A stretch of 64,000 nt of DNA from Romanomermis culicivorax. Taxonomy: Eukaryota > Nematoda > Enoplea > Mermithida > Mermithidae. The stretch is from positions 620,001 through 684,000 of the forward strand of contig CAWUHX010000004.1 in the NCBI GenBank assembly GCA_963922205.1, read 5' to 3'. The notes below the pieces were generated by a model. It was not told the DNA's origin, searched no databases, and saw only the letters and a list, made by a program, of their open reading frames with translations. Below are positions 1 through 47,336 of this stretch, piece after piece. Numbering within the stretch: the first letter of the stretch is position 1; the number at the start of each line of letters is the position of its first letter. The position numbers and the translations under genes are program-made.

Positions 1-102
1 TTTAAATTTATGAAAAAATTAGTGTATTTTGACGAAGTTTTCTAGGTTTTTTCAATAGAAATGATGGAAAATTTTACTAAAAAATTGCGATTTCTGTCAA
101 TT
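1..102. repeat. Satellite-like repeat downstream of F-box copy A
   Basis: This is part of the roughly 110-bp degenerate repeat seen downstream of other F-box copies. It is the reverse complement of sequence at about 10440-10600, with shared words such as TTTTACGTCAAAAT and GATGGAAAATTTTA. It directly abuts the truncated exon 2 of copy A, so a deletion joined coding sequence to this repeat. Confidence 0.5.
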
Positions 103-370
103 TTACGTCAAAATCAGGAAAAAATTTTCCCTCCTTGAATAGTTTTGTATAGAGAAATATTGCAAGTTGGGCGCTTTAAGGGGCAATTTCCGGATTTGTT
201 CAGCATTCAGGATGTCGACGGCAAAATAACGTAAATTTGGACATTGATCCAAAATGAGGTCGAACGATCCTGGGGAAGCAGGTCTATTGGCGTATAAATG
301 TATTCCTTCCAATGAAGAGATGGACCGCATCATTTTCAAAGCTGCAGCATGCTTTGCTGACCAACACAGA
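103..370 (-). CDS. F-box/LRR gene copy A, exon 2 (truncated 3' end)
   Basis: This is the second exon of copy A. The acceptor is a run of T followed by CAG (reverse complement of 371-378). Joining to the donor at 1282 keeps the frame: 1133 + 268 bp gives 466 residues. The start of the exon (KMMRSISSLEG, then DLILDQCPNLRYF) matches exon 2 of copies B, C and D and is leucine-rich-repeat-like. After KAPNLQYFSIQNYS the similarity stops and the frame ends within flanking repeat. Copies B and C carry about 70 more residues here, ending NEWIHL-x-C-x-ENPS. I infer a deletion that replaced the C-terminus, so the protein may be defective. Confidence 0.6.
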
Positions 371-13667: not shown

Positions 13668-14253
13668 TGTTGTGGAGCGATTTGACGTATTTGTAAAGCT
13701 CGTGTCGTTTGCGAAAAGAGATCGGCAAGTTTGAATTGGGAAGATCGCGACGAGACCACCGAAGAGGCGTGGCTATAACGTGAAGAAATTATGAAAGTGT
13801 TTTCATTAGTTTTTGCGTTGTACTGTAGCCAAACGGTTGTGTTTTTGGCGTTTGTCTGAAAAAGTGTGTGGCGGCTTTTGTACATTAGTAAATTGTGCGA
13901 AAGGTGTGTTCTAGTTTGAATCAAACTATTTGGAAAATAGTTTGAGTGAGCGAGTGAGACTCCTAAGCGACTAAGATTATACGGCGCGAGTTTCGGCATC
14001 CGAAAACCTTTGACGACCTGAGCGAAGATCCCTGGATAAATTGACACAGCGCTCTCTACGAGCCCGTCAATCTCCTGCGTTCGACTATCGTTGCGTAAAT
14101 CCGATAAACACTCCGGGTGTTTCGTCTACAGTGTTCCGCATGCTCTTCCACGTTCCGTACGTCTCTTCAAAACGCGCGATAAATCGTCGAGCTACACAGC
14201 TTAAATTCTCATCTGCGTTCCGTCGTCCATTCTTCATTTTCTCACGCACGACA
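13668..14253 (+). repeat. 5' LTR
   Basis: 586 bp, starting TGTTGTGG and ending CACGACA, thus TG...CA. Compared with the 3' LTR it has one extra G near 13875 and three transitions at CpG sites (near 14132, 14140 and 14176). It should hold the promoter and the R/U5 regions; I could not locate a convincing TATA box or poly(A) signal. Confidence 0.95.
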
Positions 14254-15807: not shown

Positions 15808-17682
15808 GAAAACTCGCAAAACGCTAATAATTTCGAAAATCGAAGATCGCAATTCGATCGCAGGACAAGTCCGAACTTTCGGAATAGAGAAAACATTCCT
15901 ATACGGGATTTCTCTCAGAATCGAAACTTCCAACGAAATCAGTCACGTGAACGACCGGTAAAATATTGCACCTATCATGGTCAGTGTAAACACGACAGCT
16001 CCGAATGCTATCAATTGAAACCACAGGCTTCTCAGCCTCGGCAACAGCAACTAAATCATCAATGGCAAAACAACCATAATTGGCGTCCTCGTTTTCAACA
16101 AAATATGCGTAACTACACGCTCAATCAGAATCAAAATTTTGACCGAAATAACCGATTCTTCAATCGCGATAACCGAAACTATCAGAGAGATGTTGCAAAC
16201 ATTTCTCTTTGCGATTCCGAATCCCGACAAGAAAAGATAATCGAGAAGCACTACTACTATCCGATGAATAACTCACAGTCTATACAGACTCAGCTAACTT
16301 CTCCGAAATCTTCGCAACAAGTTTTGTCATCAGAAACCAAAACGGTGTCCAACTCACCTAAACCTTTCGTTCCGATGAAACCGACAACTAGTACAGCTAA
16401 TATGCTTGAACCAACAGAAGCTTCTAAAGCTACAAACTTCTTCGTCGCTCCCGGAATCACTGATTTCACAATCGAAAAACCTACTGAACCGTGGATCGCG
16501 AGATCTAGCGTGTGTCGAATCGAAGAATGTTCGCAAAAAGATATCAAACTGCTGAGCTTATACGCTCCTACTCGTGCTTTTCATATCGATGCCGAAATCG
16601 GAAAAACCAAAACAAAAGTGTTAATCGATACCGGTGCTCAGTGTTCAGTCATTTCCTCATGTCTAGCTCAACGCTCTTTGGGGATTGACTATGATACTTT
16701 GGAAACATCCGCGCAGATAAAAGTAGCCGACGGTGCTATCGTCGATGCCAGAGGTCCGATAATCTTCAAAATCAGTTCATCTTTCGGAACGCATCTAGTA
16801 CGATGCTGGATACTACCTACTACAGGAGAGCAATGCCTCCTAGGAACTGATTTCCTAGTGCATCCAAGCGTTCAAGCCGTAATAAACTTTCGTGAAAATT
16901 TCATCAGAATCGGAGACGTTCAACAAGAACTAAATCAAATTTTGAAACCGATCGAAAAAGCGCCCTATGACGAAGTATTTTCAAATACTTCTACGGGACA
17001 AAGTCAAACGCAAATCGTGAAAATCGACAGATCGCTACCGATTCTGAATATCTCGTCATGCTACGTAGAACCGAATTGTCAAACGTGGGTTAACGGAAAA
17101 ATCTTTCCTTTCACAAACGAAAGCTTCAAAAGCGTCATAGTTCAACCCGTGAACTTCGGAAAAGAAAACTGCGAATATCCGATCGAACTTGCGATAATCA
17201 ACATAACTGAAGGCAAATGTCCACTATTATTCGTCAATAATAGTGCGAACGGCATCCATCTACAACCTAACCAGCTCATCGCTGAGGTTAAATTCAAACT
17301 CGAAGAATCGAAAATGACCGTCGCGTCGCTAAGCGATCACGAAGAAGACTATGAGCCAGCGACGTTGGTTAAAGATCAGTCAACCATGTCCGAAGAAGAA
17401 AAACTTCAACACGCTCTCGAAAAAATGACTGAAAAGTCGAATATCGACGTTGAAGATAGAAAAATCGCTATCGAAGTCTTCAAGCAATATCGCGATGTTT
17501 TCAGTCTCCCTGGAGATCAGCCTACTCTCACACACGAGTTAACGGTCTCTATAGACACCGGTGATGCAAAACCAGTCGCAAAACACTACTATCGTGCGCC
17601 GATTGAACAAAGACCAATGGTTCATCAGAAAATCCAAGAAATGCTGGAAAAAGGCCTCATAGAACCTTCGCGATCACCGTGA
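15808..17682 (+). pseudogene. Nucleocapsid knuckle, protease and start of pol
   Basis: Continues the Gag frame. At 15961-16017 the segment YCTYHGQCKHDSSECYQL has a C-x2-H ... H-x4-C knuckle for nucleic-acid binding. A Gln/Asn-rich linker follows. The aspartic protease has LIDTGAQCSVI with the catalytic Asp codon at 16627 and a later CLLGTDFL flap-end motif near 16840. A connector of about 270 residues leads to HYYRAPIEQRPMVHQKI, the usual approach to reverse transcriptase. The frame stops at TGA 17680-17682 exactly at the start of the RT palm. Confidence 0.8.
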
Positions 17683-18636
17683 GCTGCGCCTATGTTTCTG
17701 GTAACGAAAAAAGATGGAAGTTGGAGACCCGTAGTCGATTATAGAGGTATAAATGAAGTTACTCCTAGCGATAAGTTTCCGATCCCGAGAATCGATGACT
17801 ATCTAGATGCTCTAGGCAATGCAAGATTTTTCTCAACTCTAGACTTAAAAGCAGGGTATTGGCAAATCCCTTTAGACATCGCTTCACGCGATAAAACTAC
17901 TTTCGTCAGTCAAGAAGGCTTGTTTTGTTTCAAAGTTCTACCTTTTGGTTTGAAAAATGCTCCCGCTGAATTTCAAAGACTAATGGAACGGATCCTGCAT
18001 CCATACATCTGGAAAATCTGTTTGGTCTATATCGACGATATCATAGTCTTTTCGCAAACGTATAACGATCATCTAGCACATATCCAACTGATCTTTGATG
18101 CTCTTCGAGATGCAAATCTAACGCTAAGACCAGATAAATGTGATTTCGTACCGAAACAAGTAAAGTTTCTTGGTCACTTGCTAAGCGAAAATGGAATCTC
18201 ACCTGATCCCGAAAAAGTTTCCGCAATCGTAAACTATGAAATGCCAAAAACGGTAAAAGATCTTCAAAGTTTTTTGGGCCTTGTCCAATGGTGTAGACGA
18301 TTCATACTGAATCTTGCCACTCTTTCGCGACCACTCTATCAACTTCTACGAAAAAACGCGAAATATGAGATAAGCGAAGAACATCGTACAGCGTTTAACG
18401 AGATTAAAACATCTCTAACCTCAACTCCTTTCTTGCGATATCCTGTCTATAACGACGAAAAATCGAAATTCATCATTCAAACTGATGCTACCACAACTGC
18501 TATTGGTGCGATTTTGTATCAAGAAAATGAAAATGATCAATGGGTCATCGCGTACAACAGTAGAGTTCTGTCCGACGTAGAAACCCGCTACAGTACGACT
18601 GAGCGCGAATGTCTAGCAATTGTAGAAGCTTTCTGA
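17683..18636 (+). pseudogene. Reverse transcriptase and N-terminal RNase H
   Basis: RT motifs in order: FLVTKKDGSWRPVVDYRGIN, STLDLKAGYWQIPL, PFGLKNAPAEFQRLM, LVYIDDIIVFS (YIDD codons 18028-18039) and KFLGHLLSENGISPDPEK. RNase H begins with IIQTDATTTAIGAIL (first catalytic Asp) and TERECLAIVEAF. A TGA at 18634 then replaces a probable Arg codon, and the domain continues WYRHYVYG. The sequence copies RNA into cDNA in Ty3/Gypsy particles. Confidence 0.88.
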
Positions 18637-20307
18637 TGGTACAGACACTATGTCTATGGACAAAAAGTAACGGTCAGAACTGATCATAAGCCTTTGCAAT
18701 GGATCAAAGAAGAAAAACATCGAAACTCGCGACTTCAGAACTTCGCAATAAAACTGCAAGACTATGACTACCGTGTTGAATATGTAAAAGGCAAAGAAAA
18801 TGCTTGCGCTGATTTTTTGTCTCGAAACGAACCTCACGCTAAAGTGAAGTCAAAGACTAGCGAAGAAGTAACAAATGAAATATTCAGACCGACATTTCGA
18901 GAAGGAAAAAAGACTGTCGTTGCGGCCATAACAAGGTCAATGACGCAAAAAGAAGAAAGAAGTAAAGTGCCGAAGTTCGAAGAAGACTTTCAACAGCCAG
19001 AGAAACGGCTAGTAACTATAGAAACGCCGGAAGAAATCCGAGAAGCTCAAAGAAAAGACCCGTACATCGCGAAGTTGATAAAAGTTCTGGAACAAAACCA
19101 AATCTCTACGATTTCATCTGCTTTCCATACCGAAAACGAGATAGTGTACCGAACATCGAAACAAGCTAACACAGCTTCCGCGATAGTAGTCCCAACTACT
19201 CTGATTGAAAGTGTTTTGTATCAATTTCACGGCGCGAAGATTTTGAGCCATCAAGGTCATAGACGCACTACAGCGATGATTCGTCAGCATTTCTGGTGGC
19301 CGAAAATGGAAGAATCGATAATAAAGTGGATCAAAACATGTAAAACATGTCAACAAACAACTTCTCAGTTGCGGAAACCTCCTCCGTTGATGCCGATACA
19401 ACCAAAATATCCATTTGAAATGGTGGCGACCGACATAGTAAACATATCCCCTTTGGGTGAGAAAAGATCATACGTCATCGTATTTCAAGACTACTTCACT
19501 AAATGGGTAAGCGCTCATTTGATTCCGGATCAAAAAGCAGCCACTATAGTCGAAAGTTTCGTAAACAACGTAGTATTGGTTCATGGTAGTCCGAAACATC
19601 TTCTATCAGATCAGGGTTCAGGATTCACTTCAAACTTGATGAAAGACATCGCGAAACTACTAAAAGTTCAGAAAATCAATACCACTGCGTATCACCCACA
19701 ATGTAATGGAATGGTAGAAAGATTCAACCAAACGTTGATTTCGCAACTCAAAAAATTCACCCCTGAAGACCCCGATAATTGGGAACGATATCTACCTTTC
19801 GCCACTTTCGCCTATAACGCTGTTCCTCACACAGCTACTCACTTCTCTCCGTTTCGACTTTTGCGAGGGTACGAACCCAGAATCGCTATAGATTTCGACT
19901 GCGCGAAAAGTCTAACGTTACCGCTAAACTACGATGCGTATCAGTACATCTTCACGCAAGCGCAACTAACGCTATATAACGAAGTTTTCGAAAACTTAAA
20001 AAACGCATCCGAATCGCATAAACGATACTTCGATAAGAAAGCGAAAGAGCAGAAATACGATCTAAACGATCTCATACTGTTGCTTAACAACAAAAAAGCA
20101 ACAAAAATCGATAAAGACTATATCGGACCCTTCGTAGTGGTCGAAAACTCCGAAATTTTGAAAAACGTCATAACGATCGATAGTTTAGATTGTCCCGGAC
20201 AATCTCAGAAAGTCTCACTTTCTCGCGTAAAGCCATACATGCCTCGCACGGCATCGGCAATCTTAGAAACGGAAGACAACGGTCCTCCAAAAATTTGTAA
20301 ACATTAA
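18637..20307 (+). pseudogene. C-terminal RNase H and integrase
   Basis: RNase H ends with [10 protein letters not shown] and NACADFLSR. After a charged linker, the integrase has an H2C2 zinc domain ([11 protein letters not shown] ... CKTCQQ) and a DDE core. The catalytic codons are Asp 19432, Asp 19609 and Glu 19717, giving a D-D spacing of 59 and DD35E. The C-terminal part is rich in Lys and ends TAA at 20307. No chromodomain is apparent. All catalytic residues are present, so this segment itself looks undamaged. Confidence 0.88.
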
Positions 20308-20796
20308 AATTAATAATTTTGATATATTTCAACTAACACTAATTTTTAATTTTGTTGAATAAAGTCTAACTATTTAATAATTTTGAGCAAAGCGATGAGT
20401 ACAAATTTTCGAATATTTAAAAACGCGCAAAACGCGCTCATACAGATTCTATGTGGAATGAATGAAAGGAATGCGTGTGATATTATTATGTGATTTTGTA
20501 TTTATTCACGTCCATTTCGAATAAATTGACCTTCCATAAGTAGTTGCGCAGAAGAGAGAATGAATAGAAAGCGCCCGCTGTAGGAAAATCTTCCTCTGGT
20601 CCCACCCAATCTGAACTTTACATTTTTCGCCATGTGCATGAAAATTTAAATTCGTGATTTAACAACTTTCCACTTTACACCTTCATCTTTTAGCAAGATA
20701 GTTTGGCTTATATTTTCATTTCGCAAAATTGAAACGATAGAGAACAGTCGCATCGAATTTGAAATTGTTCAAAATCAAAGTTGATAGATAAAAGCG
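20308..20796 (+). other. Leader of the third ORF
   Basis: 489 bp between pol and ORF3 without coding potential. It includes an AATAAAGT word near 20360 and a candidate splice acceptor CTTTTAG with AG at 20692-20693, which could serve a spliced subgenomic RNA for ORF3. This is inference from sequence alone. Confidence 0.35.
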
Positions 20797-23700
20797 ATGG
20801 CGAGTGAATCGGAGGCGACAACGTCGCAAGAATCGGCGATATCTACGTCGCTAATAAATCCGCCGCCGATATTTCGAAAATCTTTTAACAACCAAGACCG
20901 ATACGTGGCGTATCAGAAAAAGCAGTACCGTCAAGACGACAGATTTTTCTTTGCTGATGGTAAGTTCTGCACTGCCATATAGACTAAAGTCTCTAAAAAG
21001 AAACTCCGGGTTTCACTTCCCCAGGGAAGAGTAAAGTATCGATCCGTCGATAAGAAAATAGGAGTCGCGGTAACTTTGCTAGAAGATTTGCACGCTGCGA
21101 TTCGAATGAGTGACGTTTCCATGCGAAACTAAATCTCACAGAAATTAATCGAAATTTTATGATATTTTTTAGAATACAATATCAAAAGAATGATCCGAAT
21201 CACGGAATTCGAACATTGGTTCGAGACGGTATATGCAAGACCGCTAAACGTGCTACGTGACCCTCAATACGTTGAGAGCGGAGAGTTGAAAGGCGCCCTA
21301 TCGGCATCCGCAAAACCGAACTTCCGCGGCCACATGCTAGTCGGATTCGACGTCGAAAAGATCTCGACTACTCAGCTATACATACACAAGAAAACGAAAA
21401 TGAATATAGTGAACCAGAACGCGACCCACGTCGCTCGGTTCGTCCAGCTGGGTTTTCCCACTGGGTACACTATAATGTTCGACGCCTTAGCGGCGACACC
21501 TGAGGACTGGACGGCCTTCTACGAGTTCGTGTTGGCCCCTAAAACGATCGTAATCGGATTCGATCAAGCCGACGATTGGAAATGTCTCAAAGACATGCAC
21601 GGACGAGAGTTTTACTCATCCGATGCTCGAAAAACGCACTCTAATGTGCTCGCGCCTTGTGTACTGGTCGACGTCCAGATTATACTAGAAAATATCGAAC
21701 GCTCACCCGAAAAGTGGGAGAGAGCTCGTCTGATCGGCTTGTGCCCCGAAAATAAAAAATTGAAAGGAATCGTTGCCGACGCGTTCGCGCTAGACGTAGA
21801 ACACTACACGTTGTATTTTCCGCAAGCGAACGATCGCATCGCCCAAGCAGGCAAACCCGACGATCAAGTTTTGACGTATTCGATTCTAGATGCGTACTAT
21901 CCGATACTAATGTTTTTAGCGTACGGGCGCTACGGCTTCGTAGACAGCGTCTATGACAGCATACAAATCTTCCCGCACGATTTCTTGCCGCCCGAATACA
22001 TACACATCGCTACGCAAAATTTGTATGATAACGCAAACGTCGATCGCGAAGGCGATGAAAAGGGCGCTTTCGGCATCGTAGATCCGACGCTCTCAAAAAG
22101 TATGCTGCATGCGATCATGTGCGACGAAATCCTGGCGTTAAATCGAATCATATACTACGACTATAACGTCCCGAACATGCGATACTGCACGTATAATCAC
22201 GTAAACCTGGAGCACTCCACTAAACCGCTCGGACTGAAAATGCATCCGACAAAACTACCGACGATAAAAGGTAGCAAAAATAACACGTCTTCGTTGACCG
22301 ACGACGGAAAAACTGAACCGTACGATGACGCCGCTGTTTGCGCGAGAGTTATAGAGCGAGCTTTACGCTCCAATGACGTAGTTAGCATCCATCACGAAGT
22401 TGGCGCACCTATGTCTTTGCTATTTCTTTCCGAAATAGACCAAAACATGGTGACGAGCGACGAAGCGAAACAAATAAATTTCGAACTAGTCGTAAACGAT
22501 CCGTTCACTACCTACGGTCCTCCAGAAACGTGGCCTATCTACGAAATAAAATGCGACCATCAGATTGCCGAAAAGCCGGCTCTAACGCCGCTCTACTCAG
22601 TTCCGAACCATCATCAATGGATGAATGCTGTTCGCGGAACTATGCCGCTAGTCGCTCACGTCTGCTCCCCACATTCCGAAATGGAATTGCGAGCCATCCT
22701 CAAAAATGAGATCTCGAAACTGTTATCAAAAAGTGACAGTATCGACATAGATCTTATTTGCGAGCAAAATTGGGTGAAACGAGACGGCACGTTCGAATTC
22801 GAACTAATGGAATGGACTAGTCGCTTGCCCTACAACGAAAAGAATCGCAGCGACAGTAAACGACCGATATACGCGAATCGATATTTTATGCATCAAATCA
22901 TATTCAAAAACGACAGTATTCCTGTCTCCAACGAAACCGATCTAGTAACGAAAAAGAAGTATAGGGAAAACCCCTACTACTACTTTTCATACAATTCGCC
23001 GATTTTAACGTCGAGAAAATGCGAGCAACTCATTTGCTTTCCGCCGAGTCATACTCTAACAATGAGTTCGAATTTGCCCGTAATACCAACCGCTATATTG
23101 TCGGGAGAAAGTCCCACGAAAACGCCTACACAGGCTCCTACACAATCCACCGCGGATACCGAATTCGAGGCGGAAACGGCGATGGCCGTCGATTCGTTGC
23201 TCAAACAAACCGCTGAAGAATCGTTCACGGTAAAAACGGAACTACCGTCCGAATCCGACGTCATACAACTCGAAAGCGAAGAAGAAGACGTATCCACAGC
23301 TGATACTACTGCACCTATAATGACGACTAAAACAACGTCCTCGTTGACTCCGCTATCCCAAAACTTGTCGAGCAGTACATTCGAATTGGAATCGGAGGAA
23401 ATAAAGAAACGAAACATACAAGAGGTAGCCTCGTTGGTAAAAACCTCATCGATGTATGATGTTTCGCGTATGGAAGACGTAGAAGAAGACGAAACGAAAA
23501 TGGTACCTCCGAAAATCATACCTACGCGATACCGAATACGAAAGAAAAACGAGGAAGACACCTCTACTCCGATCAGTACCGAAACAGCCACTCCAGTTTT
23601 GGAGGTGAAAGACGACCGATTGTGCGACGAACACGGCGTACCCATTCGCAACGTCAGAGCGTATCAGTTTTCACTGTTTCGCAGACGAAATGCTATCGAT

Positions 23701-24984
23701 AAACAGCTGCGCACAATACAGGATTATCTGGACACGCACCCAGAAGATCCTAATTACGTGCCTCGATCCAAAAAACGTCGAGAATCACGAGAAGACACTC
23801 GTAGTAGAGAACGAAAAGAAACCGAATCACGGTCACGAGAACGACCCTCGCGGTCTACTGCTCGCAAGGAAAGCGACGATTATGACAGTCGAAAATATCG
23901 ACATGGTGAATACGCGTCGAATGAGCGTCCTAGAAAATTTCACCGAGATCGCGATTATAGACGAGAACATCCTAGCGAATCAAAAGATCGGCAAAAAAGA
24001 ATTGAATGGGCTAGCGCCTTGAAACGCGATCAATTGCAAAAAGAACAGTTAGAGAGCCAACAGCCTCCGACGGCTGGCTCGGAACCAATGATCGACCAAC
24101 CAACAACGTCGCAGCAAGCCGAAACAGCTAGCGAACAACAAAAGTCGCAACGAACCGTCCGAGAATACAAAGTTGCGCATCGACGACATGGTAGACAGCG
24201 TACACCGCCGGAAGAACGGTACCCTAGCGTACCTACAGCACCTATTACGGCTCAAATCCAACCGAGAACGACCGATGACGTAATTATCATTAATTACTCC
24301 AATCGTGCTCATTTGGATTTCGATCCTGTAATTTTACGTCAAGCCACCGCGGCTTCGCAACAAATAGCGCAGGACTTTCCTGACTATTTTCAAGCGCGAT
24401 ATCTGCGACGAGATCCGCATTGCACAGAAGAACTCACTGCAGTTCTTCTAAGTTGGATGTGTGATTACTATAAGTATTACGGCGCTGAAAACGCAATCGT
24501 GATAACACAGCTCACGCTGTTCCTCTTCCACGCCAGACAAGCCTACGACTACAAAACTACCGATAATTCGTATTCGATGGCTCTACGCTACATCTTGCAA
24601 TGCCTCACCGACACGCGAGCCCCGAATTATCCGGCAACTGAAGAAAGGAAGGCTATCATCCGAGATATACATCGCGAATATCAAATTGAAATGGACAAGC
24701 GAGCCGAAGAAAAGAAAAAGAAAGATGCGATGGCAAAGGCAAAAGCAGCCGTACCGCCAAAGTACCAAATGACACCGGCCCCGATCATCACTATGGCAAC
24801 GACCGCGACAACTCAACCGTCGATGGTTGGAGTGCGAACCTCACTTGGAGCCGCGCAGCGAGCTTTGGCCCCGCGAGCACTGACCACGAGTCAATCGATA
24901 CAGATGCCCCCGCCGGGTATTCTGAAAGCGAGCAAAACCCCGGTCAAAGTTTTGCCTAAAGGTCGCGGATTTCCGCCGAAATGA
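20797..24984 (+). CDS. ORF3: DEDDy 3'-5' exonuclease-like protein with RS-rich segment
   Basis: Predicted exons 20797-20959 and 21173-24984 give 1324 residues; without splicing the ORF starts at 21190 (1264 residues). Counting from 21190, an RNase D / mut-7 / EXD-like exonuclease domain covers about residues 45-245. It has exo I GFDVE (D54, E56), exo [13 protein letters not shown] (D129) and exo III YSILD (Y230, D234), which together form a complete DEDDy set. Residues 250-620 are unrecognised. A Ser/Thr/Glu-rich stretch precedes an Arg/Ser-rich basic segment (about 857-938). A helical region (about 1043-1145) and a Lys/Ala-rich tail end the protein. No signal peptide or transmembrane envelope features are seen. 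The function is unknown: perhaps RNA or cDNA trimming, or interference with host small-RNA silencing. The domain call rests on motif spacing only. Confidence 0.72.
20960..21172 (+). other. Predicted 213-bp intron in ORF3
   Basis: Donor G|GTAAGT at 20960 and acceptor ATATTTTTTAG ending at 21172. The 213 bp contain in-frame stops (20980, 21130). Removal joins ...RFFFAD to [13 protein letters not shown] in one frame. Retroelements rarely keep introns in sense ORFs unless splicing is part of expression. Confidence 0.6.
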
Positions 24985-25330: not shown

Positions 25331-25915
25331 TGTTGTGGAGCGATTTGACGTATTTGTAAAGCTCGTGTCGTTTGCGAAAAGAGATCGGCAAGTTTGAATT
25401 GGGAAGATCGCGACGAGACCACCGAAGAGGCGTGGCTATAACGTGAAGAAATTATGAAAGTGTTTTCATTAGTTTTTGCGTTGTACTGTAGCCAAACGGT
25501 TGTGTTTTTGGCGTTTGTCTGAAAAAGTGTGTGGCGCTTTTGTACATTAGTAAATTGTGCGAAAGGTGTGTTCTAGTTTGAATCAAACTATTTGGAAAAT
25601 AGTTTGAGTGAGCGAGTGAGACTCCTAAGCGACTAAGATTATACGGCGCGAGTTTCGGCATCCGAAAACCTTTGACGACCTGAGCGAAGATCCCTGGATA
25701 AATTGACACAGCGCTCTCTACGAGCCCGTCAATCTCCTGCGTTCGACTATCGTTGCGTAAATCCGATAAACACTCCGGGTGTTTCGTCTACAGCGTTCCG
25801 CACGCTCTTCCACGTTCCGTACGTCTCTTCAAAACGTGCGATAAATCGTCGAGCTACACAGCTTAAATTCTCATCTGCGTTCCGTCGTCCATTCTTCATT
25901 TTCTCACGCACGACA
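25331..25915 (+). repeat. 3' LTR
   Basis: 585 bp, TGTTGTGG to CACGACA. Nearly identical to the 5' LTR; see the element entry for the differences. Followed by GGGA, the right copy of the target duplication. Confidence 0.95.
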
Positions 25916-33908: not shown

Positions 33909-34252
33909 CTAAAAGAAAATTCAGGAATTAAATTAATTTCTCAAAAAAACGAGACCTTCCCCGCCAACATAACCAGCATTTTACCAAGTCGGAAATAGGA
34001 ACAAAAATCGAATTTCATTATCATGGTTTTCAGCATGTAAAATATCCATAACAGTGAAATTAAATCCACCAGAAAACTATGAGATAGAAAATGTTGCTCC
34101 AACTTGAGAACATTATGTTGGAATCATTGGACGAAAATCAATTCCAAATAGGTATGAGTTTATTCAAAAACTCCAAGGCTCTACAAAGTTTACCTGTTTT
34201 GTGGCTTCAAGCAGATACCCTTACTAGTATAATCAGCATAAAGGGAACTTAC

Positions 34253-35406
34253 AATTTCAATTTCCGTAACTCGGCCACCTTCGGTAGATCGAAGAAGCCA
34301 AAACAAGGTAAGACGAAGTACTTTAAATTCACCATTTTCGATAATTCGTTGTACATAAACGACTGTACTTTACCTGCCGGCTTAAAGCAAGTTGTGAAAA
34401 TTTCAATTTGATCATAAAGTGGAAATTTGTCGAAAACAATGCGATAAAACGCCAAATCACCATCCAATGGTTTCAAAGAAAGTTCTTTCAACAGGGGACT
34501 ACGAGCTAATAGAAAGGCGACGAATTTTGCGTGACTTTCGAAGCTATGGCAGGAAACCTGAATATTTTGCAAAGAAACGAAATATAAATCGTTTATAATT
34601 CTGTGATGAGATAAATCGGAATTTTCTTCGAGATGCCTGATGGTATGATGAACATCCAACGACAAGGTTTTCAATTTTGGCAACCTCATCAACTTTTTGA
34701 TCAGCTGAACATTATTATGTGATACGTAACCAATATCCAAGCTTTCTAAATTCAAATTAACATCCAACAGTGCATACAATTGTTCATATTCTGGACTCTG
34801 CATTCTTCCATCAGATTTCAATGAAAAATGAGTCAAATTTCGACACGATAAATCAATCCAATAATCACGAAATTGACAAATCTCCAATTTCGTCAAGGCG
34901 GAATGGCTAAAAATGAATTTATTTATGCTCTCTCGTAATTTATGATTGGATGATTTTGTTTCGCTTATATACGCACTAAGTTGCCGCAAATTGTGAGAAT
35001 TTTCGACGAAAATCAATGCATTTTCCCAGCCGAACATTTCAATAAAAATTGAATCAATTTCCAAACATGTCAATTTTTGTAAACTAGGAAGAAGGATGAG
35101 GAAATTTTTTTTAAAATCCTCAAATATAAATGTATCAGGCGGAACCGAGTTCATTTTCTTCCAGAGCATGAAAGGCATGACGTTATACAAATTTTTTAAA
35201 CGACGCAGACCGGAACAATATGCTTGAATTTTTCCCAGAATTTTTGTCCAGGAATCAGTAAACATTCGACCAAAATCAACGCATTTCGACCGATGCAATG
35301 CCAATTCGACACAACTTTTGAAAGTTGGACTTATTCGCTCGGCTATGCATAATTCTTCGAAATTGAAATATTTTAAGGTTTCGGTAATAATGACAACGTC
35401 GTCCAT
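34253..35406 (-). CDS. F-box/LRR protein copy C, exon 1 (apparently intact gene)
   Basis: Starts MDDVVIITETLKYFNFEELC, a complete F-box at residues 1-50, then LRR-like repeats (for example LNLESLDIGYVSHNNVQLI and LPKLKTLSLDV). The donor GTAAGT (reverse complement of 34247-34252) overlaps a TAA that would end the unspliced frame. Spliced with 33428-33908 through a 344-bp intron it gives 544 residues without interruption. It is the only copy in the window with both exons whole, so it is the best candidate for a working SCF-type substrate adaptor. The target is unknown. Confidence 0.8.
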
Positions 35407-40136: not shown

Positions 40137-42344
40137 TCAAATCAAATATTTCTGAATTTTCCGAATTTCAAACAGCCATAATGTGACGACAAGGCAACTA
40201 AAAATGGCAGAAAAATTCACAAGAACATTTGCGATCCTGTATAATGGTATATTTGGAGTCAAGATCCGTTTTGGAAACATTAGTCGCTCCATCATTGTTG
40301 ATGATCTGAAATTTTCGAAGGTATATTTTGCACTGAGCTTAGAAGCAGCAAAATTGGTGAAATGTTTGAACAGAAATTCTTTTTGTTCTAATGAAGGAAT
40401 GTTGGGAATAATTTTGCCTTTACATTTTTCCACGTATTCCCGATGCTTTACATTGAACGTATGCATAGAAATAAATTTTATCAGATTTTTGATGCATAAC
40501 GACATCCGCAAATACAGATTTATTACGTCTTTGATATGTTTATTTTGTGCTTCAATCTGATTAGTATCATTAATTCCAAAATTTGTGAGATTTTTCCGAA
40601 AGACATACAAGCCCACATTTCCTTACAACTCATCCAGTTAGATGTGAAAATTTCTTTGAAATGACTTGGGATTAATTTATCATTCAGGAGCTCAGTCCAA
40701 CTGTCATCAAAGATGTCAAACTTTCTAGCGTGTAATAGTCTTTTCAGCAACGTGAATGCACATTCTTTGATATTCTGTAAAGTCAAATTAGACTTGCCTA
40801 TCTCACATGACTCTCTAGGGGTAAACTTCATTTTCCGAACAATCTCCTGAAAATTTCGCTCGAAATGAACCATACTTAGTAAAACAGTTGCATTCTGGAA
40901 AGTGTTCTGAGCCGCCTTAACGGACTCAAAATATTTGTCCAAAACAACAATTTTAGTTTTGTCTATGCTATCCTGATTACTGATTTTAAACTGTTCGAAA
41001 CAAGATGTCACTAGATATTCAGTCTCCGAGCTCAAAAATGCTGCAGCAACAATGCGACTGATACGATTCTTATCTAGCGCAGTGAATAAAAAAAGAACAT
41101 AGTTGATGTTGTTTAAACGTTAAGTTCCATCTACTTCAACTAATTCTGGAAATTCAATAAACCATTGACGCATGTTGAGGCAACCTTTCCCCCTACTCGG
41201 GGCTTCAGTAAAAGTTAGGCTCGGTCTAGGACTTGAACCCAGGACCTTGCGGCTACTGTCCGCACGCTCTAACCAACGGAGCAACGGGAAAGGTGCTCTC
41301 TTTTTTTGCAACAATTCGTAGTTGAGGTGGTTGTTGTGACCACTCTCAACATCCCTCCGCTGTCGAGTTTGATGGACCGTCAAGGGCCACCAGTGTTGAG
41401 GTGACCTGTTCCCGCTACTCGGGGCTTCAGTAAAAGTTAGGCTCGGTCTGGGACTTGAACCCAGGACCTTGCGGCTACCGTCCACATGCTCTAATCAACT
41501 GAGCCAACCCAGCAACGGGAAAGGTGCTCTCTTTTTTTGCAACAATTCGTAGTTGAGGTGGTTGCTGTGACCACTCTCAACATCTCTCCGCCGTTTGAAA
41601 AACTAGTTTGAAAAAAGATTATATCCACAACATTCGATTGTGGGTCTGATATAACCTTGAGATACGGGCCTGGATCAGTCTTTTTCACATTTTCAAGAAA
41701 AGTAAATGGTTTTTAGAAACTTCGTTGGCTTTCTCAGAACTGCGAGCAGCATCTATGATGTTTCTAATATTATGATTAGTCACCTGTTTACCTTCAGTGG
41801 AGCGAATTTCCTCAGCAATTAATTTTACATTAGCTCCCAACTGGGCTGCTTTCATAATGAAATCTCTTGCATCTCTGTCTAATCTTCTTTTATGTTGGAA
41901 ATGAGACAATAATTCTTCAGAAACTTCGTGATTATGTTTAAAATTTGAGCGGGTGACTTTCAGTTTATTTTCTGCATTACTGAAATTAATATTCAAAGGA
42001 CAGCTACACCCCACAGCTCCGAAATGACTTTGATTGGGTCGTAGACCTATGGCAGTTGCCCTACAATGAATACCATTCCTGCAAACTAGAACAAGCTTTG
42101 AAAAAACAAATTTCTTCTCATCGTTGTGAAAACGTTTACTGGACTCGATTGAAAATGACTGAATAGTTTCACTTTCTAGCTGTTCGATGGCTTTGGCGAG
42201 ATCTTGGAAGCAACCAAAAACCGAACCAGCTACTAAAGCTTTCGAAGCATTTACAGTTGACAGGTCAATGATCTTCGGATGCAGCATTTTGTGCAAATTA
42301 TGAAGTTCAATGACTTGTACATAACAATCCATCCTGAAAATCAT
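40137..42344 (-). pseudogene. Decayed MULE transposase
   Basis: In coding order from 42344 to lower coordinates: an N-terminal FAR1-like zinc domain (CRNGIHCRATAIGLRPNQ, GCSCPLNI, then FKHNHEVSEELLSHF); a frame change near 41690; interruption by SINEs; MRQWFIEFPELVEVDGT with a stop near 41120; a MULE core around IVVLDKYFESVKA and ATVLLSMVHFERNF; FGINDTNQIEAQNKHIK; and a SWIM zinc finger (CSC ... LPCRHIMA, about 40160-40260) containing a stop. Domain order FAR1-MULE-SWIM is diagnostic. Several stops and frameshifts make it non-functional. Confidence 0.8.
41174..41592 (-). mobile_element. tRNA-derived SINE doublet inside the MULE transposase
   Basis: Read on the minus strand, two tRNA-like heads (41441-41510 and 41221-41285) carry an A box (TGGCTCAGTTGATTAGAGC) and a B box (GGGTTCAAGTCC). 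Both are followed by the same body (CTAACTTTTACTGAAGCCCC) and tail (ACCTCAACTACGAATTGTTG). They interrupt the transposase frame between FQTSFSN and MRQWFIEF. RNA polymerase III promoters are therefore present, but these are not tRNA genes. Confidence 0.75.
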
Positions 42345-46206: not shown

Positions 46207-47336
46207 AATTTTAATTTCCTTAATTCGCTGATCTTTTCAATATCATCGGAGTAAAAGTTGTTACGATTTATCGAAAAGTGCTTTAAATTAACCATTTTTG
46301 ACAGTTCGTTGTAAATAAACGACATCTGGCTCCGGCGAATACACTAGTCTGAAAATTTTCATTTGATTGTAAAGGGGAAACTTGTCGAAAATAATGCGAT
46401 AAAACGCCAAATTTTCGTGGTATGATCTCAAAGAAAATTCTTTCAACAGGGGACTACGGGATAGTAGGAAAGCAACGAATTTTGCGTGACTTTCCGAGTC
46501 TATACAGTAAACCTCAATATTTTGCAAAGAAACGAAATACAAATCTTTGATAATTCTGTGATAAGGTAAATCCGAATCTCCAGTGGAAATATGTAGAGAC
46601 AAACTTTTCAATTTTGGCAACCTCATCAACTTTTCGACCAGCTGAAGATTATTGTGTGATACTGTAGTAATGTCCAAACTTTCTAAATTCAAATTAACAT
46701 CCAGCAATGCATACAATTGTTCATAATATGCACTGTCCATTGATCTATATAATTCCAGTCCAAAATGAGTCAAATTTCGACATGATGATAAATCAATCCA
46801 TGAATCGTAACGCTGAACAACTTTTAATTTCGTCAAGGCGGAATGGCCAATAACAACTTTATTAATTTTCTCTCGTAGTTCATTAGATATTTCATGTACG
46901 ATAGCAACACCAAGTTGCTTCAAATTGGGAGCATTTTCCACAAAACTCAATGCACATTCCCTAATGTTTCGATAAAATTCCAATCAATTTCTAAACACGT
47001 CAGTTTTTCTAAACTAGGAAGAAGGATAACGAAATTTTTCTTGAAATTCCCTAGTATAAATGGATGAGGTGAACGCGAATCCCATCTTTTCGTGAGCATG
47101 AAAGACAAGACCTTGTGCAAATTTTTTAAACGAAGCAGGCCGGAACAATATGCACGAATTTTTGCCATAATTTTTGTCCAGGAAACACTGAACATTCGAT
47201 CGAAATCAAAGCATTTTAACCGATGCAATTCCCATTCGACGCAACTTTTGAAATTTGGATTTATTCGCTCTGCTATGCATAATTCTTCGAAGTCGAAATA
47301 CTTTAAGACTTCCGTAATAATGACGACGTCCTCCAC
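46207..47336 (-). pseudogene. F-box/LRR copy D, exon 1 (frameshifted)
   Basis: Starts MEDVVIITEVLKYFDFEELC, so the F-box is intact. Against copy A it lacks 4 bp near 46965 (after NFIE) and 8 bp near 46315 (after YSPEPD), each causing a frameshift. The LRR part is otherwise well conserved, and the GTAAGT donor (reverse complement of 46201-46206) remains. It is a recent pseudogene or has two assembly errors. Confidence 0.7.

Follow-up and report, generated by a model that had tools for sequence, protein, structure and literature searches.

The window analyzed here, 64,000 nucleotides of the mermithid nematode Romanomermis culicivorax (assembly GCA_963922205.1, contig CAWUHX010000004.1, positions 620,001 to 684,000 of the forward strand), bears a long terminal repeat (LTR) retrotransposon of about 12.2 kb, with an open reading frame (ORF) in gag position, pol and a third ORF (ORF3) between its LTRs (Table 1). 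Its LTRs, found as direct repeats, and the protease-reverse transcriptase (RT)-RNase H (RH)-integrase order of its Pfam matches (gag-asp_proteas, E-value = 7.8e-12; RVT_1, 5.9e-38; RT_RNaseH_2, 9e-25; Integrase_H2C2, 7.2e-19; rve, 4.8e-12) assign it to the Ty3/Gypsy type. ORF3 is located between pol and the 3' LTR, as in the bdelloid-type elements discussed below. Judged from its sequence, it very likely encodes an RNase D/mut-7-like DEDDy 3'-5' exonuclease, whose activity is predicted, and with equally high confidence the gene is predicted to be spliced.

Concerning the rest of the element, the 389 amino acid (aa) ORF had no Pfam match over the cut-off and is called gag because of its position alone. 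In the window copy, pol is broken by in-frame stops at 17,680 and 18,634. The LTRs differ by four mismatches and two 1-base gaps over 592 aligned bases (about seven flanking bases counted in), and the insertion is recent, though its pol is broken. The GGGA flanks, compared by eye, may weakly indicate a 4-bp target-site duplication, the left flank being G-rich. Among the best 120 of 593 matches, the integrase ORF is closest to a protein from R. culicivorax, with 57% identity across 55% of the query, and the remaining 119 stand at 26-41% identity. The window element and its copies are here called family A; families B and C are other element families of the same genome.

Table 1. Features of the window element, in window coordinates
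Feature	Position	Strand	Basis or remark
5' LTR (TG...CA)	13668..14253	+	Direct repeats; GGGA just before
gag-position ORF, 389 aa	14638..15807	+	Open frame and position
pol: protease, RT, RH, integrase	16015..20307	+	Pfam matches
Candidate splice acceptor TTAG 5' of ORF3 exon 1 (cis- or trans-splicing)	20690..20693	+	TTTTAG
Predicted ORF3 exon 1	20797..20959	+	Open in all aligned copies; codon-position pattern; end resembles family C exon 1
Predicted ORF3 intron, phase 1	20960..21172	+	GT..AG kept; family C counterpart
ORF3 exon 2, enclosing ORF 21190-24984 (1264 codons)	21173..24984	+	Open frame
DEDDy exonuclease-like domain, residues 46-250 of the 21190 ORF	21325..21939	+	Motifs, profile alignments, dN/dS
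3' LTR	25331..25915	+	Direct repeats; GGGA follows

The genome (359,112,060 bases, 595 contigs) was searched with the exonuclease region. At the DNA level the window and 39 other places matched at 96-98% (all 40 scored, of 229 candidates), and at the protein level 150 of 150 scored places matched at 100-74%, some of them partial or with stops (3123 candidates). These copy numbers are lower bounds, with the exonuclease region at a minimum of 150 places genome-wide. An open ORF3 stretch of at least 1273 codons is present in 12 of the 39 other copies, ORF3 is uninterrupted on aligned columns (insertions not counted) in 14, and the exonuclease domain is uninterrupted in 35. Two copies (L012 and L013, G000:C36) lie 11,654 bases apart, about the LTR-to-LTR distance of the window element (11,662), and are equal in divergence and frames, as a tandem pair with one LTR in common would be.

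The original prediction counted ORF3 from 21,190. The gene very probably starts at 20,797 in an upstream exon, and this predicted exon and the intron behind it are new relative to that account. Spliced ORF3 is predicted to be 1324 aa long, with its catalytic residues then numbered D114, E116, D189, Y290 and D294. Exon 1 opens with ATG and closes with G before the donor GTAAGT, TTTTTTAG stands directly 5' of 21,173, and the junction keeps the frame. In 40 of 40 sequences, window included, the donor GT and acceptor AG are intact and exon 1 has neither stops nor length changes. Diversity in exon 1 is 0.0130, 0.0146 and 0.0677 at codon positions 1, 2 and 3, and the stretch just 5' of it reaches 0.0684 and differs in length in 35 of 40 sequences. 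Pairwise diversity in the intron is 0.0174, with a length change in 4 of 40, and this low value may possibly come from splicing control. A coding exon inside the intron (frame from 21,025) was also considered; its variable sites, viewed by eye, had no codon-position pattern and it is not claimed. The family C intron (L116, 2062-2699) agrees with that of the window in position and phase, its junction reading MGTPNN...RQNNRYFLVD and then DHNIRRAMRIAEL, and both introns open with GTAAG after G and close with the same acceptor motif. TTTTAG was found at the candidate acceptor upstream of exon 1 in all eight loci compared (L001-L008, the window's copy among them), and its TTAG may be used in splicing. 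The intron is still present in each of the 40 sequences, so the RNA that was reverse transcribed must have been unspliced.

The translation of 21190-21950 contains the five residues originally claimed for an RNase D, mut-7 and EXD-like exonuclease, namely D54 and E56 (GFDVE), D129, and Y230 and D234 (YSILD), so that the motif order DxE, then D, then YxxxD occurs at family-like spacing. The spacing by itself is weak evidence, since the bare pattern (DxE-60..90-D-80..120-YxxxD) was found in 8782 of 20,000 shuffles of the 1264-aa ORF and in 868 of 20,000 shuffles of its first 260 aa. A stricter motif, drawn up with knowledge of the sequence and with the help of a family consensus, was found in none of 20,000 shuffles of either. 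The exonuclease reading is upheld through relatives of ORF3 in the same genome and not through motif spacing.

Searching the genome with PF01612, we scored 119 candidates and obtained 116 matches at E up to 1, of which many exceeded the cut-off. Family B, represented by eight loci (L108-L115, grouped by eye), is a separate multicopy DEDDy-bearing element family. Its ORF3 frames are open over up to 614 codons and harbor, by eye, GLD(A/T)EF, GFASNCDL-like and EYA(A/T)LDA-like motifs, with the exceptions of L111, which is without the first motif, and L112, which is broken. Two family B ORF3s match PF01612 over the cut-off (E-value = 5.2e-11 and 1.4e-10), and matches in PDB are weak (E 0.0029-0.27; BAD_0989, WRN, mut-7 homolog and Rrp6). 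An integrase-like stretch, often frame-broken, lies 5' of ORF3 in six of the eight loci; in both loci tested it was under the Pfam cut-off, and the best rows shown for these two have 31-38% identity with retroelement integrases. Family C, represented by L116 and L117, was reached through weak PF01612 matches in open frames of about 1230-1400 codons. It is a sister element, with an integrase 48% identical to that of the window over 384 positions and a spliced ORF3 predicted at 1399 aa in L116, with an RGG/glycine-rich tail. Its ORF3 is 23.5% identical to window ORF3 over 651 positions (E-value = 3e-32); all five catalytic residues are identical and the identical blocks include GFDVEK, CPE..KLKG and DAY. 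Because the family B integrase is not especially close to that of A or C in protein comparison, two element lineages in this genome appear to carry DEDDy-type ORF3s. A shared C-terminal domain in A, B and C, suspected by eye, was dropped because shuffled sequences scored as high as the real ones, or higher, in 18, 59 and 23 of 100 cases; the test was a weak one, the B set being two sequences and one row cut to a single residue.

Profile comparison with HHalign connects these ORFs to known enzymes. Family A alone against five RNase D/NrnC-type sequences scored 23.0 over 52 columns (best of 100 shuffles, 19.7), with D129 aligned to the aspartate of exo II in RNase D, and three other parts of ORF3 scored 14.1, 11.7 and 10.1 against the same set. 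The joint A+C profile reached 31.2 against that set over 121 columns (E-value = 6.4e-4; best of 200 column shuffles, 23.35), and the exo II D and exo III Y/D were in register when the alignment was read by eye. Against family B it scored 32.9 over 56 columns, the best of 200 shuffles being 24.9. By way of families B and C, these comparisons show homology between the exonuclease domain and the RNase D/NrnC group.

The domain is also under purifying selection in the copies of the window family. The main set held 37 of the 40 sequences, window included, after three with at least 30 gaps (L009, L026 and L030) had been dropped; alignments, here and in the smaller set below, hold the reference length, insertions being uncounted, and codons with multiple changes were set apart from the spectrum (three such codons in the domain, none of them common to at least four sequences). 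Domain variants present in at least four sequences were 18 synonymous and 0 nonsynonymous, those in two or three sequences 12 and 6, and singletons 34 and 47, with three stops. Across the whole of ORF3, variants in at least four sequences were 164 synonymous and 36 nonsynonymous, the latter all outside the domain. This is the spectrum expected of a gene that is under constraint while its lineage transposes and that decays once a copy has inserted. The ratio dN/dS (nonsynonymous to synonymous change per site) was 0.106 in the domain and 0.139 across ORF3. In a smaller set with a simpler count (pN/pS, the corresponding ratio for polymorphisms), the ratio was 0.062 for RT/RH (20 sequences), 0.102 for the exonuclease domain (19 sequences), 0.160 for ORF3 residues 251-640 and 0.239 for residues 641-1264; for this comparison 20 of the 39 copies were fetched, L105 being dropped for lack of an RT match and L009 and L026 for ORF3.

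Several results weigh against this picture or limit it. Window ORF3 has no PF01612 match in Pfam at E up to 10, and is therefore probably a distant relative of the family rather than a Pfam-level member. The exonuclease region has no match in a PDB sequence search, and whole ORF3 has none at E up to 0.01 in a collection of 5.8 billion proteins, where candidates had to be 0.55-1.75 times as long as ORF3. With NCBIfam and PHROGs, too, ORF3 gave no exonuclease match, and searches of viral contigs (exonuclease region and A+C alignment) and of phages gave no match. A search for RNase D homologues had only close enterobacterial sequences among its best 120 matches and was left unused. The AlphaFold2 model from the single sequence (mean predicted local distance difference test score, pLDDT, 28.5) was too poor for fold searching. 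HHalign assigns modest probabilities (4% to A alone, 28% and 31% to A+C), and exo I is not reached in the alignments; for these two reasons ORF3 is called a distant but real relative. The copies preserve the catalytic residues, as the original prediction expected (D54, E56, Y230 and D234 in 39 of the 39 other copies, D129 in 38), which is little beyond chance: one change was seen where about 1.7 were expected, and because divergence is so small this conservation alone proves little. Nor is constraint peculiar to the domain, as other ORF3 segments have dN/dS values of 0.108-0.161 and the last one 0.245; the domain is among the most constrained parts of ORF3, not alone in this. Finally, the copies were picked as best matches of the exonuclease region, which lowers diversity there and should affect the dN/dS ratio less, and some of them, like L012 and L013, are not independent. 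A natural variant of the active site exists in a single copy, L031, where N replaces D129 and the ORF3 frame is open over a long stretch of 1297 codons.

Taken to its end, such doubt would make the motifs a chance match in an unrelated fold, in keeping with the frequency of the bare spacing in shuffles, the silence of Pfam and PDB for the window ORF, the uninformative structure model and the profile alignments that miss exo I. We judge this highly improbable: all five residues are conserved in family C, each of two profile comparisons beats all of its 200 shuffles, and in family B, of the same genome, an ORF3 is recognized by PF01612.

This kind of gene is known from bdelloid rotifers. The LTR retrotransposons Juno and Vesta carry a DEDDy ORF3 (Rodriguez, Kenefick and Arkhipova, 2017, PMC5408684), which that study describes as having been gained on two or more occasions, and like the window element they consist of gag, pol and a third ORF with an RNase D-like DEDDy domain. 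Compared by description only, the window element differs in its nematode host, a different phylum, and in its ORF3, which is long (a predicted 1324 aa) and contains an intron conserved between two families. A DnaQ-like exonuclease has been called a well-known accessory domain of LTR transposons (PMC6338049), alike in kind of domain and of element, in a general statement whose passage names no nematode case. Terminons, Athena Penelope-like elements of bdelloids, likewise are retroelements with ORFs for DEDDy 3'-exonucleases (PMC6431247), but as described there they are telomeric, up to 40 kb long and not of the LTR type. Dada elements are mobile, too, and bear a DEDDy domain with its catalytic residues kept (PMC3706591), although they are DDE DNA transposons from, in that description, two non-animal hosts, with the domain inside the transposase rather than in an ORF of its own. 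Concerning cellular enzymes of PF01612 (RNase D, NrnC, mut-7, WRN and Rrp6), window ORF3 has their motif order and aligns with them by profile via families B and C; unlike them it stays under Pfam detection and has long inserts between the motifs, the conserved G(L/I)CPE..KLKG block included. Among the titles and abstract openings listed by searches of the open-licence full-text literature, none reported a DEDDy ORF3 in a nematode LTR retrotransposon. The window element is set apart by its phylum, a catalytic set that is intact, signs of selection, an intron that is conserved, and the size of ORF3.

The best overall explanation, to which we give about an even chance, is that the spliced ORF3 exonuclease would be an auxiliary replication enzyme of the element. 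Unspliced genomic RNA that keeps the intron would serve for gag-pol and for reverse transcription, and spliced RNA would give the ORF3 protein. The basic part of this protein would bind element RNA, and its exonuclease would trim the 3' ends of element RNA, complementary DNA or transfer RNA primers. By eye, window ORF3 has a basic Arg/Ser-rich linker and family C the RGG-rich tail, and 3'-end processing of retrotransposon RNA has been proposed for the bdelloid DEDDy ORFs (PMC5408684). The particular role, binding of element RNA and 3'-end trimming in replication, is put forward tentatively, at slightly less than even confidence.

Another nematode LTR element, Cer1 of C. elegans, offers a different model. 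Its spliced gene CERV ends at the env position and is needed to export unspliced genomic RNA (PMC10309623); in that account CERV has five exons, of which numbers one to three lie in the gag frame, it is described as without obvious homology outside nematodes, and the part concerned mentions no exonuclease. Because this gene ends in the same position as ORF3 and does just that, a CERV-like export role is a serious rival: spliced ORF3 would mainly serve the export or packaging of genomic RNA by binding its unspliced form in the nucleus, using the exonuclease fold for RNA binding, with catalysis secondary. The predicted splicing, the intron kept in every sequence with its low diversity, and the linker and tail just mentioned are all in accordance with it. 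A pure binding protein, however, would have no need of the five catalytic residues, which are kept in family C at 23.5% identity, and we find this role possible but doubtful.

Proteins of the mut-7/EXD type act in small-RNA pathways. The ORF3 exonuclease could hence be a counter-defence, degrading or trimming host small interfering RNAs or competing with a host mut-7-like factor so that the element escapes silencing. Small-RNA pathways have also been raised in connection with the bdelloid ORFs (PMC5408684), and counter-defence is in line with the multicopy state of the family, the almost identical LTRs of the window element and the finding that, in one genome, ORF3s of DEDDy type follow two integrases unlike each other. 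A small-RNA substrate, though, is not directly supported and copy number is no proof of escape. Moreover, what holds for mut-7 in C. elegans may not carry over to this host, because PIWI-interacting RNAs and 5'-triphosphorylated small RNAs are absent outside clade V, according to a figure legend on the sequencing of clade V, II and I nematodes (PMC4323106). Counter-defence is accordingly considered unlikely. A bolder variant, less probable still, joins both ideas in a nematode Gypsy lineage whose spliced active exonuclease would act on its own retained-intron RNA in the nucleus as well as against host silencing RNAs, with the intron as a switch between genomic RNA and enzyme; if true, the element would carry a mut-7-like enzyme of its own, turned from defence to counter-defence. 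As for an envelope substitute, in which ORF3 at the env position would aid cell-to-cell spread without being a nuclease, its predicted splicing is retrovirus-like, but homology and catalytic residues indicate a nuclease and no env match was found in the Pfam scan, making it the least credible of all.

These results are evidence that selection maintains the exonuclease domain of a multicopy family, and they extend the range of enzyme-bearing third ORFs in LTR retrotransposons from bdelloid rotifers to nematodes. Because DEDDy-type ORF3s stand behind two dissimilar integrases in one genome, our data suggest a repeated benefit of such ORFs, as argued for bdelloids. The conserved intron yields a clear prediction of expression. 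In nematodes mut-7, of the same enzyme class, is linked to transposon silencing, and this link makes the choice between replication enzyme and counter-defence a testable question.

Elsewhere in the window, three similar F-box/leucine-rich-repeat-like proteins were recognized by eye on the minus strand (1279-2415, 34249-35406 and 46288-46983), a locally repeated host gene family. Open stretches at 40137-42344, also on the minus strand, resemble by eye the remnant of a MULE/FLYWCH-type transposase.
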